Source of the DNA: a virus
Reading direction: 5' to 3' (one strand)
Virus record (IMG/VR): IMGVR_UViG_3300042452_000846
Span: 1 to 42,478 of that record
DNA length: 42,478 nt
The notes below the pieces were generated by a model. It had not been told where the DNA came from. It saw only the letters and a list, made by a program, of their open reading frames with translations, and made no database searches. Made by a program: the position numbers and the translations under genes. The first letter of the stretch is position 1; each line of letters starts with the position of its first letter. Shown here piece by piece: positions 3,001-32,152 of this stretch.

Positions 3001-6000
3001 CGGCTTCAGTGCCGGCTTTGCTGGCTCGCCGAATAGATTGGTAGCGGGCTTTGATTGTGGCTTGTGCTCGTAATTCCCGAACTTTTTAATTGCGTTGTGA
3101 TCCCAGATCACTACCTGCGGGCTTCCGTGCATCCCGCCAGTCAAATACGCACCATGAAATCCAAGACCTTCAAGCTGCTTCCGTTCGTCGGGATTGATTT
3201 GCCGGTTCAGTTCGGCAAACTTGCCTTGGGCTTTGACGTGAACCTCCTCGGGCTGCTGTCCGGGGTCGATTCCATGCTCTTTCAGCAATAGCGGATTTGC
3301 CAAGTCAATGTTGTACGGCTGGTCCGCAACCCACTGCAAAGCGGCTGGCGGCAGCTTCCCGGCTTTCAAGTCATGTAATTCTCGGATTCGCGGGTTAGCT
3401 TCCGATTCTGAGTTGTAGCCACTTTTAACGGCTTGTTGCAGTTGGCCGATTGCGTGATCCGCCAGTCGGTGAATCTGCTCAGTAGACAACTTTGGCAGGA
3501 AATCCCATCGGTTTGTGGCCCGGCCTCGCCAGTAATGAGGCACGGCACTAGCGTACAACCCCGCCCCTAAATCTTCGTGTGAGTCCTTGTTGTGCGATGT
3601 TACGTCGCCAGCTTGCAAAGCCTTGAGAGCGCCGGCATGATTGTTGGTGACGTGAATCGCGTTCAAGTGGCCGTCTTGAGTCCAAGCAGCCGAGCCTAAG
3701 TTTTGGTTGTCGTGCTCGGGATTGCTGGTGTCAGTCACCTTGCGGACAAAATTAGGAAGCTGCTGCCCCGCCGAGTACCGCTCGACAAGCCGCCGGACTC
3801 GCTGGCCCAGCTCCCGGGCTTCATCGGCCAAGCCGTGCCGCTCGGTTTCCTCGGCCGGCTTGTCGATAATCACCATCTTGGTCGCTACACCAGTTTGGCG
3901 AAACGCATCGTCGCCCGCAAACGAGCCCTCGGGAGTGTCGTAAACCTTACCGCCCATCAGTGACAGCCAATCACGGAACCCGGCGCTACGCTCGTTCTGG
4001 TGAGCCCCTGCGCCCATAATGGCAACCAACCGCCCGCCCGGTTTGAGCAGGTTATAGGCGTGCTTGACGTGCTTTTCGTCCTGCCGGTTCTCAAACGGCG
4101 GATTCATCACGATCCGGTCATACTGCTTGTCGTGCTGCAAGAAGTCGCCGCGTTCATGCGGGAGCCCCTGCAACTCAAGAGCTTTGGCAATATCGCGATC
4201 CTGTTCGATCCCGTGCAGATCGGCGTCGGGATGGTTGTCTCGAATCGCGGCCATGATTGAGCCAATACCGGCAGACGGCTCCAAAACGCTCATGCCCTCG
4301 CCAATGTCGGCATGGTCAAGCATCTTTTCGATCAACGGTGGCGGCGTCGGGAAAAAGCCGTCAATCTTTTGTCGCTTCAAATATCGCAGGTGCTCTTTCA
4401 GTGGGTCGCGGCCCTCTGGTTCCTGCTTCATCGTGTGATATTCACGCAGCGCAGCCCGTAGTTCCGGGGTCGAGCGAATATCCATTCGCTGAAGCCGGTT
4501 CATATCTTCCAGCTTCTCACCAAACCGGCTGGCAATCCGCCGGACGTTGTGATCCGGGTGCCGTCGCATTTTCGGGATTGCTTCTTGAATCTTCTCAAGG
4601 TCGCCCAAGTCTTTAATCTGGGCATAGTCCTTGTCATACGGCATTTCAGCCGCCATCTTCCCGAGCTTGGCCGCAAACAGCTTCAACCCGGGCACGCCGG
4701 CCAATGCCGCTGCTTGGTCCCGTAATTCCGATTTGTGGAGGTACGGATACGGGTATTCGGCGTGCGCAATATCTTCGAGACTTGCCGGCCGTTCCCAATC
4801 ATCCTCGGAAACTCGCTCCCCGGCCCGCTGCCGCTTTTGAATTGCATTGATCTGGCTTCGATACAGCAGCTTGTCGAGCTGGTCAACCTGCGCCCCGTTC
4901 GATACGTGCTTCAGGTGGACCGCTTTGCCGCCGGTGATATGCTCGGCCACCTTCGCCAGCGTTTTTGCCTTGGCTAACTGCTTCCGGGCGTCATCTTCGG
5001 CACTAGAAGCCATGCGAGCCCGGCGGGCCGTATTATCCTTCCGGTCACGGTTGAGCGATTCTTCCCCGCGCTCTGACAGCCGATCCGACAGGTCAGCCAG
5101 TTTGCCAGCGACATTCTCTGCCCGCTCGGCCGCCCGGGCTTCAATCTTGTCGGAGTTGTCAACAGCCTGCCCGCCCAGTACGGCGTGGAATTTCTTGGCG
5201 GCTTCCTCATCGAAGAATTGGAAACCCGGCGTTGCCCCGTAGGCCCGTGCAATGCGAGCGTTCACGTAGTTGCCGCCGAGTTGCTTCGCCCGGCTTAGAG
5301 CCTCTTTCCAGCTATCGCCCAAGTGCTCTTGAACCGTGACCGTCCACGTCGGCGCGTTCCGCTTCTGGTGGTGGCCCTTCACAATCCCGACTTCGCCGGT
5401 TTTCTCCTGCCCGCCGGCAAACGCCGACACTTCCCGGGGCTTTTCCAGCTTGCTTGGGAACTTCTCTCGGCGGTGCTGCGCGTAGGATTCATCGTAGGCG
5501 GCCTGATGTTCCGGGCTCAGTTTCTCCCAGCCGCCCGACAAGATCGCTTTGCGCTTCCAATCGTCAAACGTCTGCGGGTTAGCAAGCGATTCTTCTCGCT
5601 GCTTTTGGCGGGCTGCTCGCTCTGCGCGGACTTGGGCAACTCCTTCGGTGTATTCCTTGATATGCTCGTCAGTGATCCCGGCCACCGCGTCATGGAGCTG
5701 CTTTTCACGGTCTTGGCCATAGGTCCAGCGGTTTGTCTCCCCCTTCACGTCGAACGATCTTTTCATCCGTCGCAACAGGTCTTGCACCGCTTCAGCCTTT
5801 TTCGAGGCTTGGCGGCCCATAATCCTCATGCCGGGCTCATGAGTCCACCCTTCAATATCCTCTTTTTTCATCTTGGAGATTTCCGCTTCCAACCCCGGCA
5901 GGCTGTCACGGAATCGGGCAAACGCCGCTTTGTGCTCGTCGGCTGAAACCTTGCCATCGTCAAGGTCGTTCATGTGCTGGGCAAAATCCGCCAGCGTCAT

Positions 6001-18943: not shown

Positions 18944-18950
18944 TGCCGAA

Positions 18951-18966
18951 ACGCCCTGCGGGGCGT
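18951..18966 (+). terminator. GC hairpin after 124-residue gene (weak terminator or processing hairpin)
   Basis: ACGCCC-TGCG-GGGCGT forms a 6-bp stem with a four-base loop just after the stop codon. Only scattered T residues follow, so it is not a classical intrinsic terminator; it may stabilise or punctuate the transcript. Confidence 0.4.
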
Positions 18967-19023
18967 CTGTCCCGATGGTTTTCGGGTACTGATGAGGCGA
19001 CCACCACCACAAGGAGAAACGAA

Positions 19024-26913: not shown

Positions 26914-26972
26914 AGTGCGGATAATAGGAGTCGAACCTACACGACCTTGCGGTCACTAGAACCTGAATCTAG
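26914..26972 (-). other. attP core candidate: 3' half of a tRNA-Leu(CAG) gene
   Basis: Read on the minus strand this gives an anticodon arm CTAGA-TTCAGGT-TCTAG (anticodon CAG, 26965-26963), a long variable arm TGACC-GCAA-GGTCG typical of Leu, and a T arm GTAGG-TTCGACT-CCTAT, then TATCCGC and a discriminator A. The 5' half (D arm and acceptor, above 26972) is not tRNA-like: the loop is only four bases, the GG of the D loop is missing, and the acceptor pairs poorly. A 3'-half tRNA next to an integrase gene is the classic attP layout, in which the phage supplies the 3' half to keep the host tRNA whole. The host tRNA is not in the window. Confidence 0.65.
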
Positions 26973-26973
26973 T

Positions 26974-26991
26974 TAGGCATCGGCCTATAAC
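26974..26991 (+). promoter_or_regulatory. Palindromic site TAGGCATCGGCCTA (perfect) running into -10 TATAAC, integrase side
   Basis: A perfect palindrome at 26974-26987, with TATAAC at 26986-26991 in the same phase as the other promoter copies. The -35 position reads CTGAAT, a weak match. It abuts the attP core, so it would stay with the integrase gene after integration and could keep it silent in the lysogen. Confidence 0.55.
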
Positions 26992-27104
26992 CGGCACGAC
27001 CGATACAGATGGACCGAAAGGAAAGGGCTTTTGCCCAACAGTACAAGGAAAAAGTTGCTGTCCCGCCACATGGATGCCTACCCTACTTTAGTGGAGGCCA
27101 ACCA

Positions 27105-27986
27105 ATGCACTTGTCTCAGTTCTTGGTGTCTTATTCGCTGCAGCGCGAATTGACTGACTCGTCCGTCGAGCAGTACCAAATCGCAATCAACAGTTTGTCG
27201 AAACACCTCGGCCGCGAAGCCGCGATCGACGATTTAGCGCCGGACGTAATCAATCTCTACCTGCGTGAACTGGCAGCGACTCGCGCGCCGCACACGGTCA
27301 AAAGCAAACGGCGCAGCCTGATGGTGCTGTGGCGAGCGGCAGTAGAGCAGGGGATGACCACCCAGATACCACGCCGCATCAGGGTAATCAAAACACCAGA
27401 GACGCCCAAAGACGTTTGGTCAGCCGAGCAGGTCGCCGGTTTAGTGTCAGTGCTCGAACGTAGGTTAGACCGCCTGCCTCAAATTTTAATCAAGGCCGCG
27501 GATTACTACTCAGGGCTGCTTCGGGCCGCTTGGGAAACAGGGCTTAGGCTGGGCGACCTAATGCAACTCGAACGACAGCACGTCGCTGAGTCTGGCTGGT
27601 TCAGCGTTACACTGCACAAGACTGGATTGACTCATTTTTGCCGGCTGCACGAAACCACGCGGCAAATCATCCTGCGTACCTACGACGAGGTTGCTCCGCC
27701 AAGAAAGCTTTGCTGGCCGACTTGGGGCCAAAGGTCTCAAAAGACTTGCTACAAGCAAATGCGAGCCGAAATCGGCAAGGCTATGGCCGAACTAGGCCTG
27801 ACCGCCAGCGATGGCCCATTCAAGAAATTGAGGCGGTCAAGCATTACCGCCGTGGAAATTGCCGCGCCGGGGCAAGGCCAGCATCAAGCCGGCCACACAA
27901 CGCCCAATACCACGCAGAAGTGGTATCTATCCAGCGCCGTAAAACTAAACCGACCGCTCCCTGAAGAACTTAGCCAAAGTTTTTGA
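27105..27986 (+). CDS. int: Tyrosine recombinase (phage integrase)
   Basis: Catalyses site-specific integration and excision. 293 residues from ATG 27105, chosen because GTGGAGG lies 8 bases upstream; a frame from 27009 has no ribosome site and crosses the attP area. The N-terminal SAM-like core-binding domain is SQFLVSYSLQRELTDSSVEQY. The catalytic domain has Arg in AAWETGLRLGDL, Lys in LHKTGLTH, Arg in KKLRRSSI (the usual H of HxLR is replaced by K), His in AGHTTPNTTQ and the nucleophile Tyr in KWYLS. It lies beside the tRNA-Leu fragment that probably is its attP. Confidence 0.93.
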   Translation: MHLSQFLVSYSLQRELTDSSVEQYQIAINSLSKHLGREAAIDDLAPDVINLYLRELAATRAPHTVKSKRRSLMVLWRAAVEQGMTTQIPRRIRVIKTPETPKDVWSAEQVAGLVSVLERRLDRLPQILIKAADYYSGLLRAAWETGLRLGDLMQLERQHVAESGWFSVTLHKTGLTHFCRLHETTRQIILRTYDEVAPPRKLCWPTWGQRSQKTCYKQMRAEIGKAMAELGLTASDGPFKKLRRSSITAVEIAAPGQGQHQAGHTTPNTTQKWYLSSAVKLNRPLPEELSQSF

Positions 27987-28279: not shown

Positions 28280-29149
28280 ATGACCGTGACTTTAGACAGG
28301 ACGACGCGGATTGGAGCTTCTGAAGCTGCCGCGATCTTGGGCATGAGCCCGTACAAAACGCCTTATGAGGTGTGGCTGGAGAAAACTCGGAGGATTGAAC
28401 AGTGGACAGGCAACGAGGCAACTCGGGCTGGCCAGCGGCTGGAGCCTCTGCTGCTCGATCATGCCGAGCGGGACTTGGGCGACCTGATGCGAGACGTATT
28501 CGTGCCGGGCCGAGGTGAAGTGCCGATTGGTGCGACCCTCGACGCTCAGGTCGTAGCGTCCGGCGAGGTTGTCGAGTGCAAGACCAGCGGTCTTACTGGT
28601 GGCCCAGTGGTCGGTAACTGGGGCGAGCCCGGCACCGATGAAATCCCAGAGTCGTACCTGATTCAAACTCAGGTGCAAATGTGGTGCGCTCGCGCTGATC
28701 AGGCTCACGTCTACGCTTTCCTTGGTAACGTGCTTCCCAAGCGGTATCTCGTTAATTACGACAGCCAGCTTGCCGAGGCAATCGTCGATAAGCTGATTAG
28801 CTGGTGGAACTACCACGTCATCGGCGACATGCAGCCGGAAGAGACTTTCGTGCCAATGGAAGTTTACAAGCGCATGAAGCGGCATCCGGAATCGCTGATT
28901 GAGCTTGGCGACGAATCAGCCGCAGAAGTGCGCAAACTGATTGAGCAGATGGAATCGGCCAAGGCAGTTCGCAAGCAGGTTGACTCGCAGGTTGACGAGC
29001 TTCAATCTCAAATCGTGTCCTATCTTGGCTCTACCGAGTGTGCGGTTCTTCCTGACGGCGCTCGGATTACTTACCTTGAGACGGTTCGCAAGGGTTACGT
29101 CGTCAAGGATTCCAGTTACCGAACTTTGCGTATCAAGGAGAAGAAGTGA
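28280..29149 (+). CDS. YqaJ/lambda-exonuclease-like alkaline exonuclease
   Basis: 289 residues from ATG 28280, with AAGGAG ending 8 bases before it. RIGASEAAAILGMSPYKTPYEVW and GQRLEPLLLDHAE are the N-terminal motifs of the YqaJ family. The active site follows in IGATLDAQV (Asp) and VVECKTS (E-x-K), then SYLIQTQVQMW. The C-terminus is helical, VRKLIEQMESAKAVRKQV. The family degrades one strand to create single-stranded tails that RecT anneals. It overlaps the RecT gene by one base (TGATG), so the two proteins are probably made in step. Confidence 0.92.
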   Translation: MTVTLDRTTRIGASEAAAILGMSPYKTPYEVWLEKTRRIEQWTGNEATRAGQRLEPLLLDHAERDLGDLMRDVFVPGRGEVPIGATLDAQVVASGEVVECKTSGLTGGPVVGNWGEPGTDEIPESYLIQTQVQMWCARADQAHVYAFLGNVLPKRYLVNYDSQLAEAIVDKLISWWNYHVIGDMQPEETFVPMEVYKRMKRHPESLIELGDESAAEVRKLIEQMESAKAVRKQVDSQVDELQSQIVSYLGSTECAVLPDGARITYLETVRKGYVVKDSSYRTLRIKEKK

Positions 29150-30271: not shown

Positions 30272-30390
30272 TACGGCTGGCACGGCGAGGTCGGGCAGGG
30301 CTCGGAGCGGCATGGCAGGGCTGGGTTAGGCAGGCGGGGCTAGGCGGGACAGGGCTCGACAAGTTTCGGCACGGCATGGTTAGGCAGGCA
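30272..30390 (+). repeat. GGCNN array A (degenerate G-rich repeat)
   Basis: About 119 bases of irregular GGC units separated by 1-3 variable bases (GGCAC, GGCGA, GGCAT, GGCAG...), G-rich on the strand of transcription, between a small membrane gene and the gene at 30458. No two units need be the same, and no plausible protein is encoded. The end gives way to ordinary leader sequence. Confidence 0.85.
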
Positions 30391-30457
30391 AATACACACG
30401 GCAAGACCGAGGCCGTTTCAATCTCGGTCATCACAAAGATGAGAAAGGTTTTTAGTT

Positions 30458-31063
30458 ATGGCTGGTATTAATTTGAAACCAATTGCACGTCGGAAGATGA
30501 CATTTGCGATTCGCGGGACTTCTCCGCTGATTATGCACCAGTGGAGCGAGAAGGCGAAACGCGAGATGCGTGAGAAGCAGCAAGAGGGAAAGAAGACCAA
30601 GGCCCGCGAAAAGCGAGTCCCGGCAGACGAGGCGAAGGCGGCAACGTACACGACCGACGATGGACAGATTGGCATTCCCGGCATGGCGTTCAAGTCTGCA
30701 CTGGTCACGGCGGCTCACAAGGACATTGGCATTGAAAAGACGCTGGTGCGAAAGGCGTTGTTTCTAGTGACCGACGACCCAAACAAGGTGCTGCCGATTG
30801 AATGCAGCAAGCCAACTGTTCGAGAAGACATGGTTCGAGTCGGCATGGGCTCGGCAGACTTGCGTTACCGCCCTGAATTCGTCGAGTGGTCGTGCCCAAT
30901 CACGCTGGAGGTTGATTCGGAGCTGCTGCAACGTGACGACATTTTGGCACTGGTTGACCGAGCTGGATTCGGCGTTGGCATCTGTGAGTGGCGACCGGAG
31001 AAGGGCGGCGAGTATGGGCGGTTTGAAATCGACCCAACGGTTGCGATTACGTTTGAGGAGTAG
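30458..31063 (+). CDS. Recombination-operon protein of unknown function (RGTSPLIMHQW)
   Basis: 201 residues. The N-terminus has FAIRGTSPLIMHQWSEKAKREM, a pattern I associate with phage proteins encoded beside RecT and exonuclease genes; no activity is assigned that I can name. A basic, charged helix (REKQQEGKKTKAREKRVP) follows, then IGIPGMAFKSALVTAA and a beta-rich C-terminus ending in IDPTVAITFEE. It is flanked by GGC arrays A and B. ATG 30458 follows GAGAAAGG. A role in DNA recombination is suggested by context only. Confidence 0.8.
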   Translation: MAGINLKPIARRKMTFAIRGTSPLIMHQWSEKAKREMREKQQEGKKTKAREKRVPADEAKAATYTTDDGQIGIPGMAFKSALVTAAHKDIGIEKTLVRKALFLVTDDPNKVLPIECSKPTVREDMVRVGMGSADLRYRPEFVEWSCPITLEVDSELLQRDDILALVDRAGFGVGICEWRPEKGGEYGRFEIDPTVAITFEE

Positions 31064-31075
31064 TTGAGATTTGCG

Positions 31076-31470
31076 ACGAGGCGGGGCATGGCCGGGACGG
31101 GCGCTGCAAGGCGAGGCATGGCAGGCAAGGCACGTTTGGGCGAGGCGCGGCGTGGACGGGCGAGGCATGGCAGGCACGGCCTAGCTGGGCATGGCACGGC
31201 AAGGCGCGGCGTGATTTGGCAGGCGCGGTCGGGCAAGGTTCGGCTCGGCTCGGCTGGTCTAGGCTCTGCGAGGCGTGGCAGGCTTGGCATGACAAGGACG
31301 GGCTAGGAACGGCGTAGCGAGGCACGGCTTGGCAAGTTAAGGCATGGCAGGCTTGGTGAGGCGCGGCGCGGCATGGCCGGGCGGGGCTGGGTTTGGTGCG
31401 GCAGGCAGGGAGTGGCCGGTCAAGGCTAGGCACGGCTGGGCTAGGCCCGGATTGGCGGGGCGTGGCTTGG
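31076..31470 (+). repeat. GGCNN array B (degenerate G-rich repeat, largest)
   Basis: About 395 bases built of GGC separated mostly by two variable bases (GGCAT-GGCAG-GCAAG-GCACG type), with occasional 4- and 6-base steps. It fills the whole gap between two recombination-operon genes. The G-rich strand is the coding-sense strand. All frames translate into biased Gly/Ala/Arg or Pro/Ala/Cys peptides of no protein character. It ends in a T-run (TTTTTTTG) followed by a ribosome site. Confidence 0.9.
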
Positions 31471-31503
31471 TTTTTTTGTTTCAAGTTTTAAGGAGTTTTT
31501 GAG

Positions 31504-32001
31504 ATGAAGATTGAATCTATCGTTTGGAAAACGAACGTCCCGACAAAGGGCATCAAAGCCGAGGACGCACACAAGGCACTGGAAGTTATCCGCAAAAAGA
31601 ATAACGGGCTGACCGACGATGCGATTGTCAACGCGGCCAAGTCATCAACGCACATCCTGCACAATTGGTTTCAGTGGGACGATACCGAGGCGGCGATTGA
31701 GTATCGACGCACGCAGGCCCGCGGCTTAATGCGGTCGCTGACCGTGACCTACAAGGAAGCACCGGAGCTGCAAGTGCGAGTCTACCAAGTCGAAACCAAG
31801 GCTCGGCCGCAAGACCCGCAGCGGACGGTTTACTCAACGACCGAGGAGGTGCTGAAGAATCCAGAGTCGCGGGACCGCCTGATTGCACAGGCGATTAAGG
31901 CGGCGATGGAGTTCCGAAATCGGTTTAAGTGTCTGCACGAACTGGAAGCGATTATCGAGTCGATTGACCAGACGCTGGTTAAGCTCGGCACAGGCGAATA
32001 G
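31504..32001 (+). CDS. Conserved phage protein of unknown function (HNWFQWDD..AA..YR..QAR)
   Basis: 165 residues. IVNAAKSSTHILHNWFQWDDTEAAIEYRRTQARGLMRS matches a family of phage proteins seen with RecT-type recombination genes, without a known activity. The rest is helical (RDRLIAQAIKAAMEFRNRFKCLHELEAIIESI). ATG 31504 has AAGGAG ending 8 bases upstream. It lies between arrays B and C, so array B is its leader and array C follows its stop at once. Confidence 0.82.
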   Translation: MKIESIVWKTNVPTKGIKAEDAHKALEVIRKKNNGLTDDAIVNAAKSSTHILHNWFQWDDTEAAIEYRRTQARGLMRSLTVTYKEAPELQVRVYQVETKARPQDPQRTVYSTTEEVLKNPESRDRLIAQAIKAAMEFRNRFKCLHELEAIIESIDQTLVKLGTGE

Positions 32002-32152
32002 CCTCGGCTCGGTTTGGCTGGGCAGGCATGGCGAGGACGGTCGGGCGGGGCGGGGCGGGACATGGCAGGCGGGGCTGGGGGAGGCAGGAACTCGCAAGGC
32101 AGGGCAAGGCAAGGCACGGCGAGGCAGGCAGGGCGAGGCTCGGCAAGGGCTT
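32002..32152 (+). repeat. GGCNN array C (degenerate G-rich repeat)
   Basis: About 150 bases starting directly after the TAG of the preceding gene. Regular stretches read GGCAG-GGCAA-GGCAA-GGCAC-GGCGA-GGCAG. Same strand bias and unit as arrays A and B, so the three are one family of elements placed after successive genes. Confidence 0.88.

Follow-up and report, generated by a model that had tools for sequence, protein, structure and literature searches.

Three degenerate GGCNN arrays in a phage genome are very probably the guide arrays of a VIPR system

Three arrays of the degenerate pentamer GGCNN lie among the genes of a 42,478-base IMG/VR virus record, which was analysed at its full length and is called the window. 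We interpret them, at a probability of about 95%, as the vrRNA guide arrays of a VIPR (Viral Interference Programmable Repeat) system. On this interpretation the locus is a multi-guide member of a kind of system first reported in 2026, in a bioRxiv preprint (PMC13142463).

In that preprint, VIPR is described as a Vipr protein, an ancestral RAMP with a single RRM, together with vrRNAs in which GGY and NN alternate. Target recognition is by the NN dinucleotides, which read double-stranded DNA and skip one base of the target at each repeat, and the published vrRNAs have 9–16 repeats. VIPR systems are mostly borne by phages or prophages and are directed against satellites and competing phages. The experiments were carried out with Escherichia phage SUSP1 (type II) and a P. 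fulva prophage, and sRNA sequencing of SUSP1 revealed four vrRNAs, one upstream and three downstream. Architectures differ by type, with staggered arrays of overlapping vrRNAs in some types and hammerhead-interspersed arrays in another (PMC13142463).

Results

Three arrays with a five-base period

The whole record was scanned with a cyclic GGCNN scoring model, which yielded three strong tracts only in 42 kb, all of them on the + strand, at 30275–30391 (array A, 78 bits), 31077–31470 (array B, 272 bits) and 32003–32148 (array C, 105 bits). The runner-up site in the window scored 18 bits and the maximum in ten order-3 Markov shuffles was 20 bits. A GGY model, which also allows GGT, broadens the tracts to the limits given in Table 1, with lengths of ∼120 (A), 401 (B) and 146 (C) bases. 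Three degenerate GGCNN arrays of about 119, 395 and 151 bases on the sense strand had been described at this place in a first-pass annotation of the DNA, and the scan bears that description out. The arrays alternate with two genes in the order A, vipr, B, phrog_15946 gene, C.

Table 1. Features of the array locus, in window coordinates.
Feature	Position	Strand	Remarks
Array A, GGCNN tract	30272–30391	+	upstream of vipr
Array A GGCAGGC steps	30329, 30383	+	
vipr gene, 201 aa, phrog_4652	30458–31063	+	Vipr profile match, predicted RAMP fold
Array B, GGCNN tract	31072–31472	+	between vipr and phrog_15946 gene; seven guide-like units, 9–13 pentamers
Array B GGCAGGC (4-nt) steps, six	31120, 31169, 31218, 31277, 31346, 31400	+	
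Putative vap (vipr accessory protein) gene, 165 aa, phrog_15946	31504–32001	+	in constant company with vipr
Array C, more degenerate GGCNN tract	32003–32148	+	directly 3' of putative vap stop codon
Array C GGCAGGC/GGCAGGA steps	32021, 32064, 32083, 32123	+	

The five-base period, for which an autocorrelation test had been set beforehand, is present. Self-identity of the arrays has maxima of 0.41–0.58 at lags of 5, 10, 15 and 20, and is ∼0.18–0.26 at the lags furthest from multiples of five over the first few periods. The distance from one GGC to the next in array B is 5 (n=32), 10 (17), 15 (2) or 4 (6) bases, with no other values, and across all arrays it is 5, 10 or 15 with a few 4-base steps, single exceptions occurring in array C. 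Almost all 4-base steps read GGC-AGGC, and in arrays A and B they recur at a spacing of 5k+4 bases.

Elsewhere in the window, a type II hammerhead ribozyme above the Rfam gathering score is found at 18944–19006 (+), ∼11 kb from the arrays and outside them, with no GGY tract adjoining. A tRNA-Leu gene (anticodon CAG) at 26915–26994 (−) directly adjoins the integrase at 27009–27986 and is a possible attachment site.

The arrays are linked to vipr and not to recT

Eighty relatives of the window RecT and 80 relatives of the phrog_4652 protein (Vipr) were scanned with the GGY model at a threshold of at least 30 bits. An array was present in 73 of the Vipr relatives, and for several of the seven relatives without an array the contig stops at the gene or shortly after it. 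Conversely, 83 of 110 viral stretches retrieved by the degenerate-array pattern alone encode a phrog_4652 homologue, as counted in the available stretch around each array. Of the 199 arrays located within 2 kb of vipr, 196 are on its strand, and this linkage of strand and gene holds across Vipr proteins of 37–68% identity. A homologue of the phrog_15946 protein accompanies Vipr in 75 of the 80 relatives. Where both genes are present, 78 arrays follow the second gene, 18 separate the two genes and 18 precede the first; the window has one array in each of these three positions.

The first-pass annotation had anchored the arrays to genes of the RecT operon and proposed, as speculation, that they serve the RecT/exonuclease pair as R-loop-forming or recombination-promoting DNA, in the manner of antibody switch regions. 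In favour of this, the sense strand is G-rich and the arrays begin ∼240 bp downstream of recT. However, the genes to which they are anchored are vipr and its phrog_15946 neighbour. An array was detected in just two of the 80 recT relatives (L140 and L165), kilobases away from recT, and no phrog_4652 homologue is encoded in the available stretches of any of the 80. Moreover, arrays follow vipr in loci that have no recT. The expected recurrence of such tracts held in part: they are absent from most recT phages, and present in many other phages. Linkage to recT was rejected on the grounds that 78 of 80 recT relatives are without an array and that the arrays track vipr.

Vipr and its neighbour

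A profile was built from an alignment of 74 phrog_4652 homologues. It matches PDB entry 36pp, “SUSP1 Vipr protein”, with an E-value of 2.1e-34 (hmmsearch), and the window protein alone matches the same entry at 1.3e-6 in a single-sequence phmmer search. In the reverse search against SUSP1, the profile identifies gp39 (28474–29061, minus strand) with an E-value of 4.1e-37. SUSP1 gp112/gp113 was also considered as the vipr locus and was rejected, since the profile search places vipr at gp39. As a positive control, the GGY detector was applied to SUSP1, where it recovers a single tract upstream of the genes and three downstream of them, exactly the four published vrRNAs.

An AlphaFold2 model of the window Vipr has a mean pLDDT of 95.8, and its best solved matches in Foldseek are Cas7-like RAMP subunits of type VII and type III (Csm) CRISPR complexes. 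The protein is predicted from this model to adopt a Cas7/Csm3-like RAMP fold, and it is expected to polymerise on vrRNA.

The structure model of the phrog_15946 protein has a pLDDT of 93.0. Its best structural matches are MarR- and PadR-like (winged-helix) regulators and are not significant, with E-values of 0.15 or worse, and no solved homologue was found. No SUSP1 protein is significantly matched by the phrog_15946 profile, and the protein is therefore not recognisably SUSP1 vap1; it is termed a putative vap because it is constantly found with vipr. No family for either protein was found in Pfam, NCBIfam or PADLOC.

Guide-like units separated by AGGC steps

Array B can be parsed into seven runs of ∼9, 9, 9, 11, 13, 10 and 13 pentamers with six AGGC steps between them. 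Array A contains a guide-like stretch with NN = AC GA CG AG TC GC AT AG TG TA and, between its GGCAGGC steps, a second with NN = GG TA GG AG TC AA TC AC AT TA. In relatives that have phrog_15946, AGGC (513) and AGGT (124) are by far the most frequent 4-base steps, and the number of pentamers per AGGY-to-AGGY unit peaks at 9–10. Since this peak coincides with the lower limit of guide lengths in the preprint, we take each run to be a single guide bounded by AGGY steps; the guide length of 9–13 units in array B presupposes that steps are guide boundaries. On this reading the three arrays together would comprise about ten guides.

A further proposal, which we put forward tentatively as a possibility somewhat short of even odds, is that loci of this clade give one long transcript with up to ∼10 guides split by a fixed AGGY step every 5k+4 bases, the step serving as a punctuation mark that Vipr or vap would recognise for processing, for starting or for stopping, and the guides being swappable as modules. 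The RNA of array B has no clear fold (z −2.75). In a search for a conserved structured 3' tail like that of SUSP1, three stretches located at the array ends or beyond them were each folded singly, and none folded significantly better than shuffles.

Guide turnover and constraint on the arrays

Among the relatives there are pairs of phages with vipr genes that are 99–100% identical, in which many guides are at background identity and others are shared almost unchanged, a pattern that resembles the exchange of whole guides. Nearly all guides are kept in the pairs L033/L046 and L221/L222. In shared guides of relatives, comprising 214 pentamers, 38 substitutions are located at the two N positions, 12 at the two Gs and 14 at Y. 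All 16 NN dinucleotides occur. This N-biased substitution, together with the replacement of guides, is the behaviour expected of a guide array and is predicted neither by slippage nor by an R-loop substrate.

The arrays could also have been taken for degenerate pentamer repeats, born of slippage, neutral and without function. Slippage generates repeat arrays, and many genome matches of the pattern are in fact simple, non-degenerate pentamer repeats. Against such an origin, the linkage to strand and gene persists across Vipr proteins of 37–68% identity, and the array sequences use every NN with substitutions that avoid the two Gs; we regard neutral slippage as very improbable. The first-pass view of strand-specific arrays that follow a rule, with fixed GGC and free NN, under a code-like constraint rather than slippage, was correct. 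The same data bear on the R-loop proposal, since near-identical vipr pairs replace many NN strings and keep GGY, which R-loop formation does not predict. The arrays follow vipr and retain GGY through this turnover, and a hotspot for R-loops or recombination is likewise highly unlikely.

Searches for targets

Exact one-skip patterns from parts of guides B4, B5, B6 and B7 of array B had no match in viral_contigs, and B5 and B7 with one skip and up to three mismatches had none in 50 related records. The one-skip pattern of SUSP1 vrRNA1, used as a control, likewise had no match in viral_contigs, and the absence of target matches therefore carries little weight. In 3.6 Mb of collected loci with one mismatch allowed, the one-skip pattern gave six matches versus none for shuffled guides, and other skips gave 1–2 versus 1–3; the one-skip excess is too small in number to support a claim. 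Of six frame models, that of codon positions 1–2 fits the NN composition best in all 1000 bootstraps, but no better than a uniform model, a weak result.

Two guides from other phages, one of L238 and one of L261, both match one conserved end of the phrog_15946 gene at two mismatches, the one-base skip being located at codon third positions; the matched vap genes are those of L220–L224, L231, L236, L229, L235, L241 and L272. The matches are not significant over all guides, but the two guides are worth a look as possible anti-VIPR guides. They also favour a variant of the VIPR interpretation in which the locus is genuine and the arrays in this clade act mainly on the phage's own or sibling VIPR genes, such as vap, instead of other genes of rivals. 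However, all guides taken together match vipr or vap, as general targets, no more often than shuffled guides do, and B4, the one window guide searched in the phage's own whole record, has no match there at up to three mismatches. This variant is considered improbable.

Discussion

The present analysis shows how the arrays are built, that Vipr has homology to the SUSP1 protein and a predicted RAMP fold, that arrays and vipr are linked and agree in strand and, in relatives, that guides turn over. The production of vrRNAs, the assembly of an RNP, the code with its one-base skip and the silencing are carried over by homology from experiments on SUSP1 and P. fulva (PMC13142463). By that analogy, a + strand transcript would yield vrRNAs in which each GGC (GGY generally) would be held by a Vipr subunit, presumably one per GGC, and the NN between them would be displayed for pairing. 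The NN of 9–13 successive units would read one double-stranded DNA target as NN-x-NN-x, with one base skipped per unit. Bound complexes would then silence transcription in a rival phage or satellite, this phage presumably aiming at its competitors.

The window locus shares with the VIPR systems of SUSP1 and P. fulva a Vipr RAMP homologue, a neighbouring gene that is a putative accessory gene, carriage by a phage, same-strand GGY/NN arrays in intergenic gaps, guide-like runs within 9–16 units and, in relatives, hypervariable NN. However, SUSP1 VIPR uses mostly GGT whereas the window arrays use GGC, the putative accessory gene is of the phrog_15946 family, and in the window several guides would be strung together in long arrays with AGGC steps where SUSP1 has single ∼100-nt vrRNAs with a structured tail. 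The backbone of class 1 CRISPR systems (Cas7, Csm3, type VII Cas7) resembles the window Vipr in its predicted RAMP fold, and periodic RNA binding is expected of both. Unlike class 1 CRISPR, which has a 6-nt period, the window arrays have a 5-nt period and a guide that is non-contiguous, and the neighbourhood of the locus has neither a recognisable CRISPR repeat-spacer array nor another recognisable cas gene. Antibody switch regions are also composed of G-rich pentameric repeats, but the window arrays have no link to recombination genes across phages and their NN carry changing information.

Degenerate GGCNN arrays are also present in records in which the Vipr profile detects no homologue, over the record as available (L066:10549–10901, L042:10435–10587, L124:6976–7071, L110:6165–6248 and L126:4857–4923). 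The L066 array lies beside apparent tail genes. Some other seemingly orphan arrays are cut by contig ends, and the L082 record has a Vipr at 61422. Orphan arrays may be explained by a Vipr that has diverged beyond the reach of the profile, by contigs that are incomplete, or by solo guide arrays that act in trans.

Two sequenced phages carry comparable loci. In Gordonia phage UmaThurman (NC_031249.1) an array (L409:4616–4939) adjoins Vipr (gene 39), and gene 40, a “hypothetical protein” at locus positions 4631–4954, lies almost wholly on the GGCNN array and is probably not a gene, in keeping with the first-pass remark that such tracts give spurious ORFs. In Mycobacterium phage Quico (NC_028751.1) an array (L410:3601–3848) lies upstream of Vipr (QUICO_57), which is followed by the phrog_15946 homologue QUICO_58. 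Quico is a laboratory-tractable relative of the window system.

VIPR has been proposed to be a relative of CRISPR that is like its ancestor and whose guide code is new and gapped. The window locus represents a form of VIPR with three arrays and what would be about ten guides. If the AGGY step is punctuation, the locus would have a multiplexed, cassette-like form of VIPR that goes further than the single-guide vrRNAs which have been tested to date. The locus ties VIPR to two unannotated families, phrog_4652 and phrog_15946, in a wide range of phages that includes sequenced Mycobacterium and Gordonia phages with standard laboratory hosts, and some ORFs listed as “hypothetical protein” can now be recognised as guide arrays.
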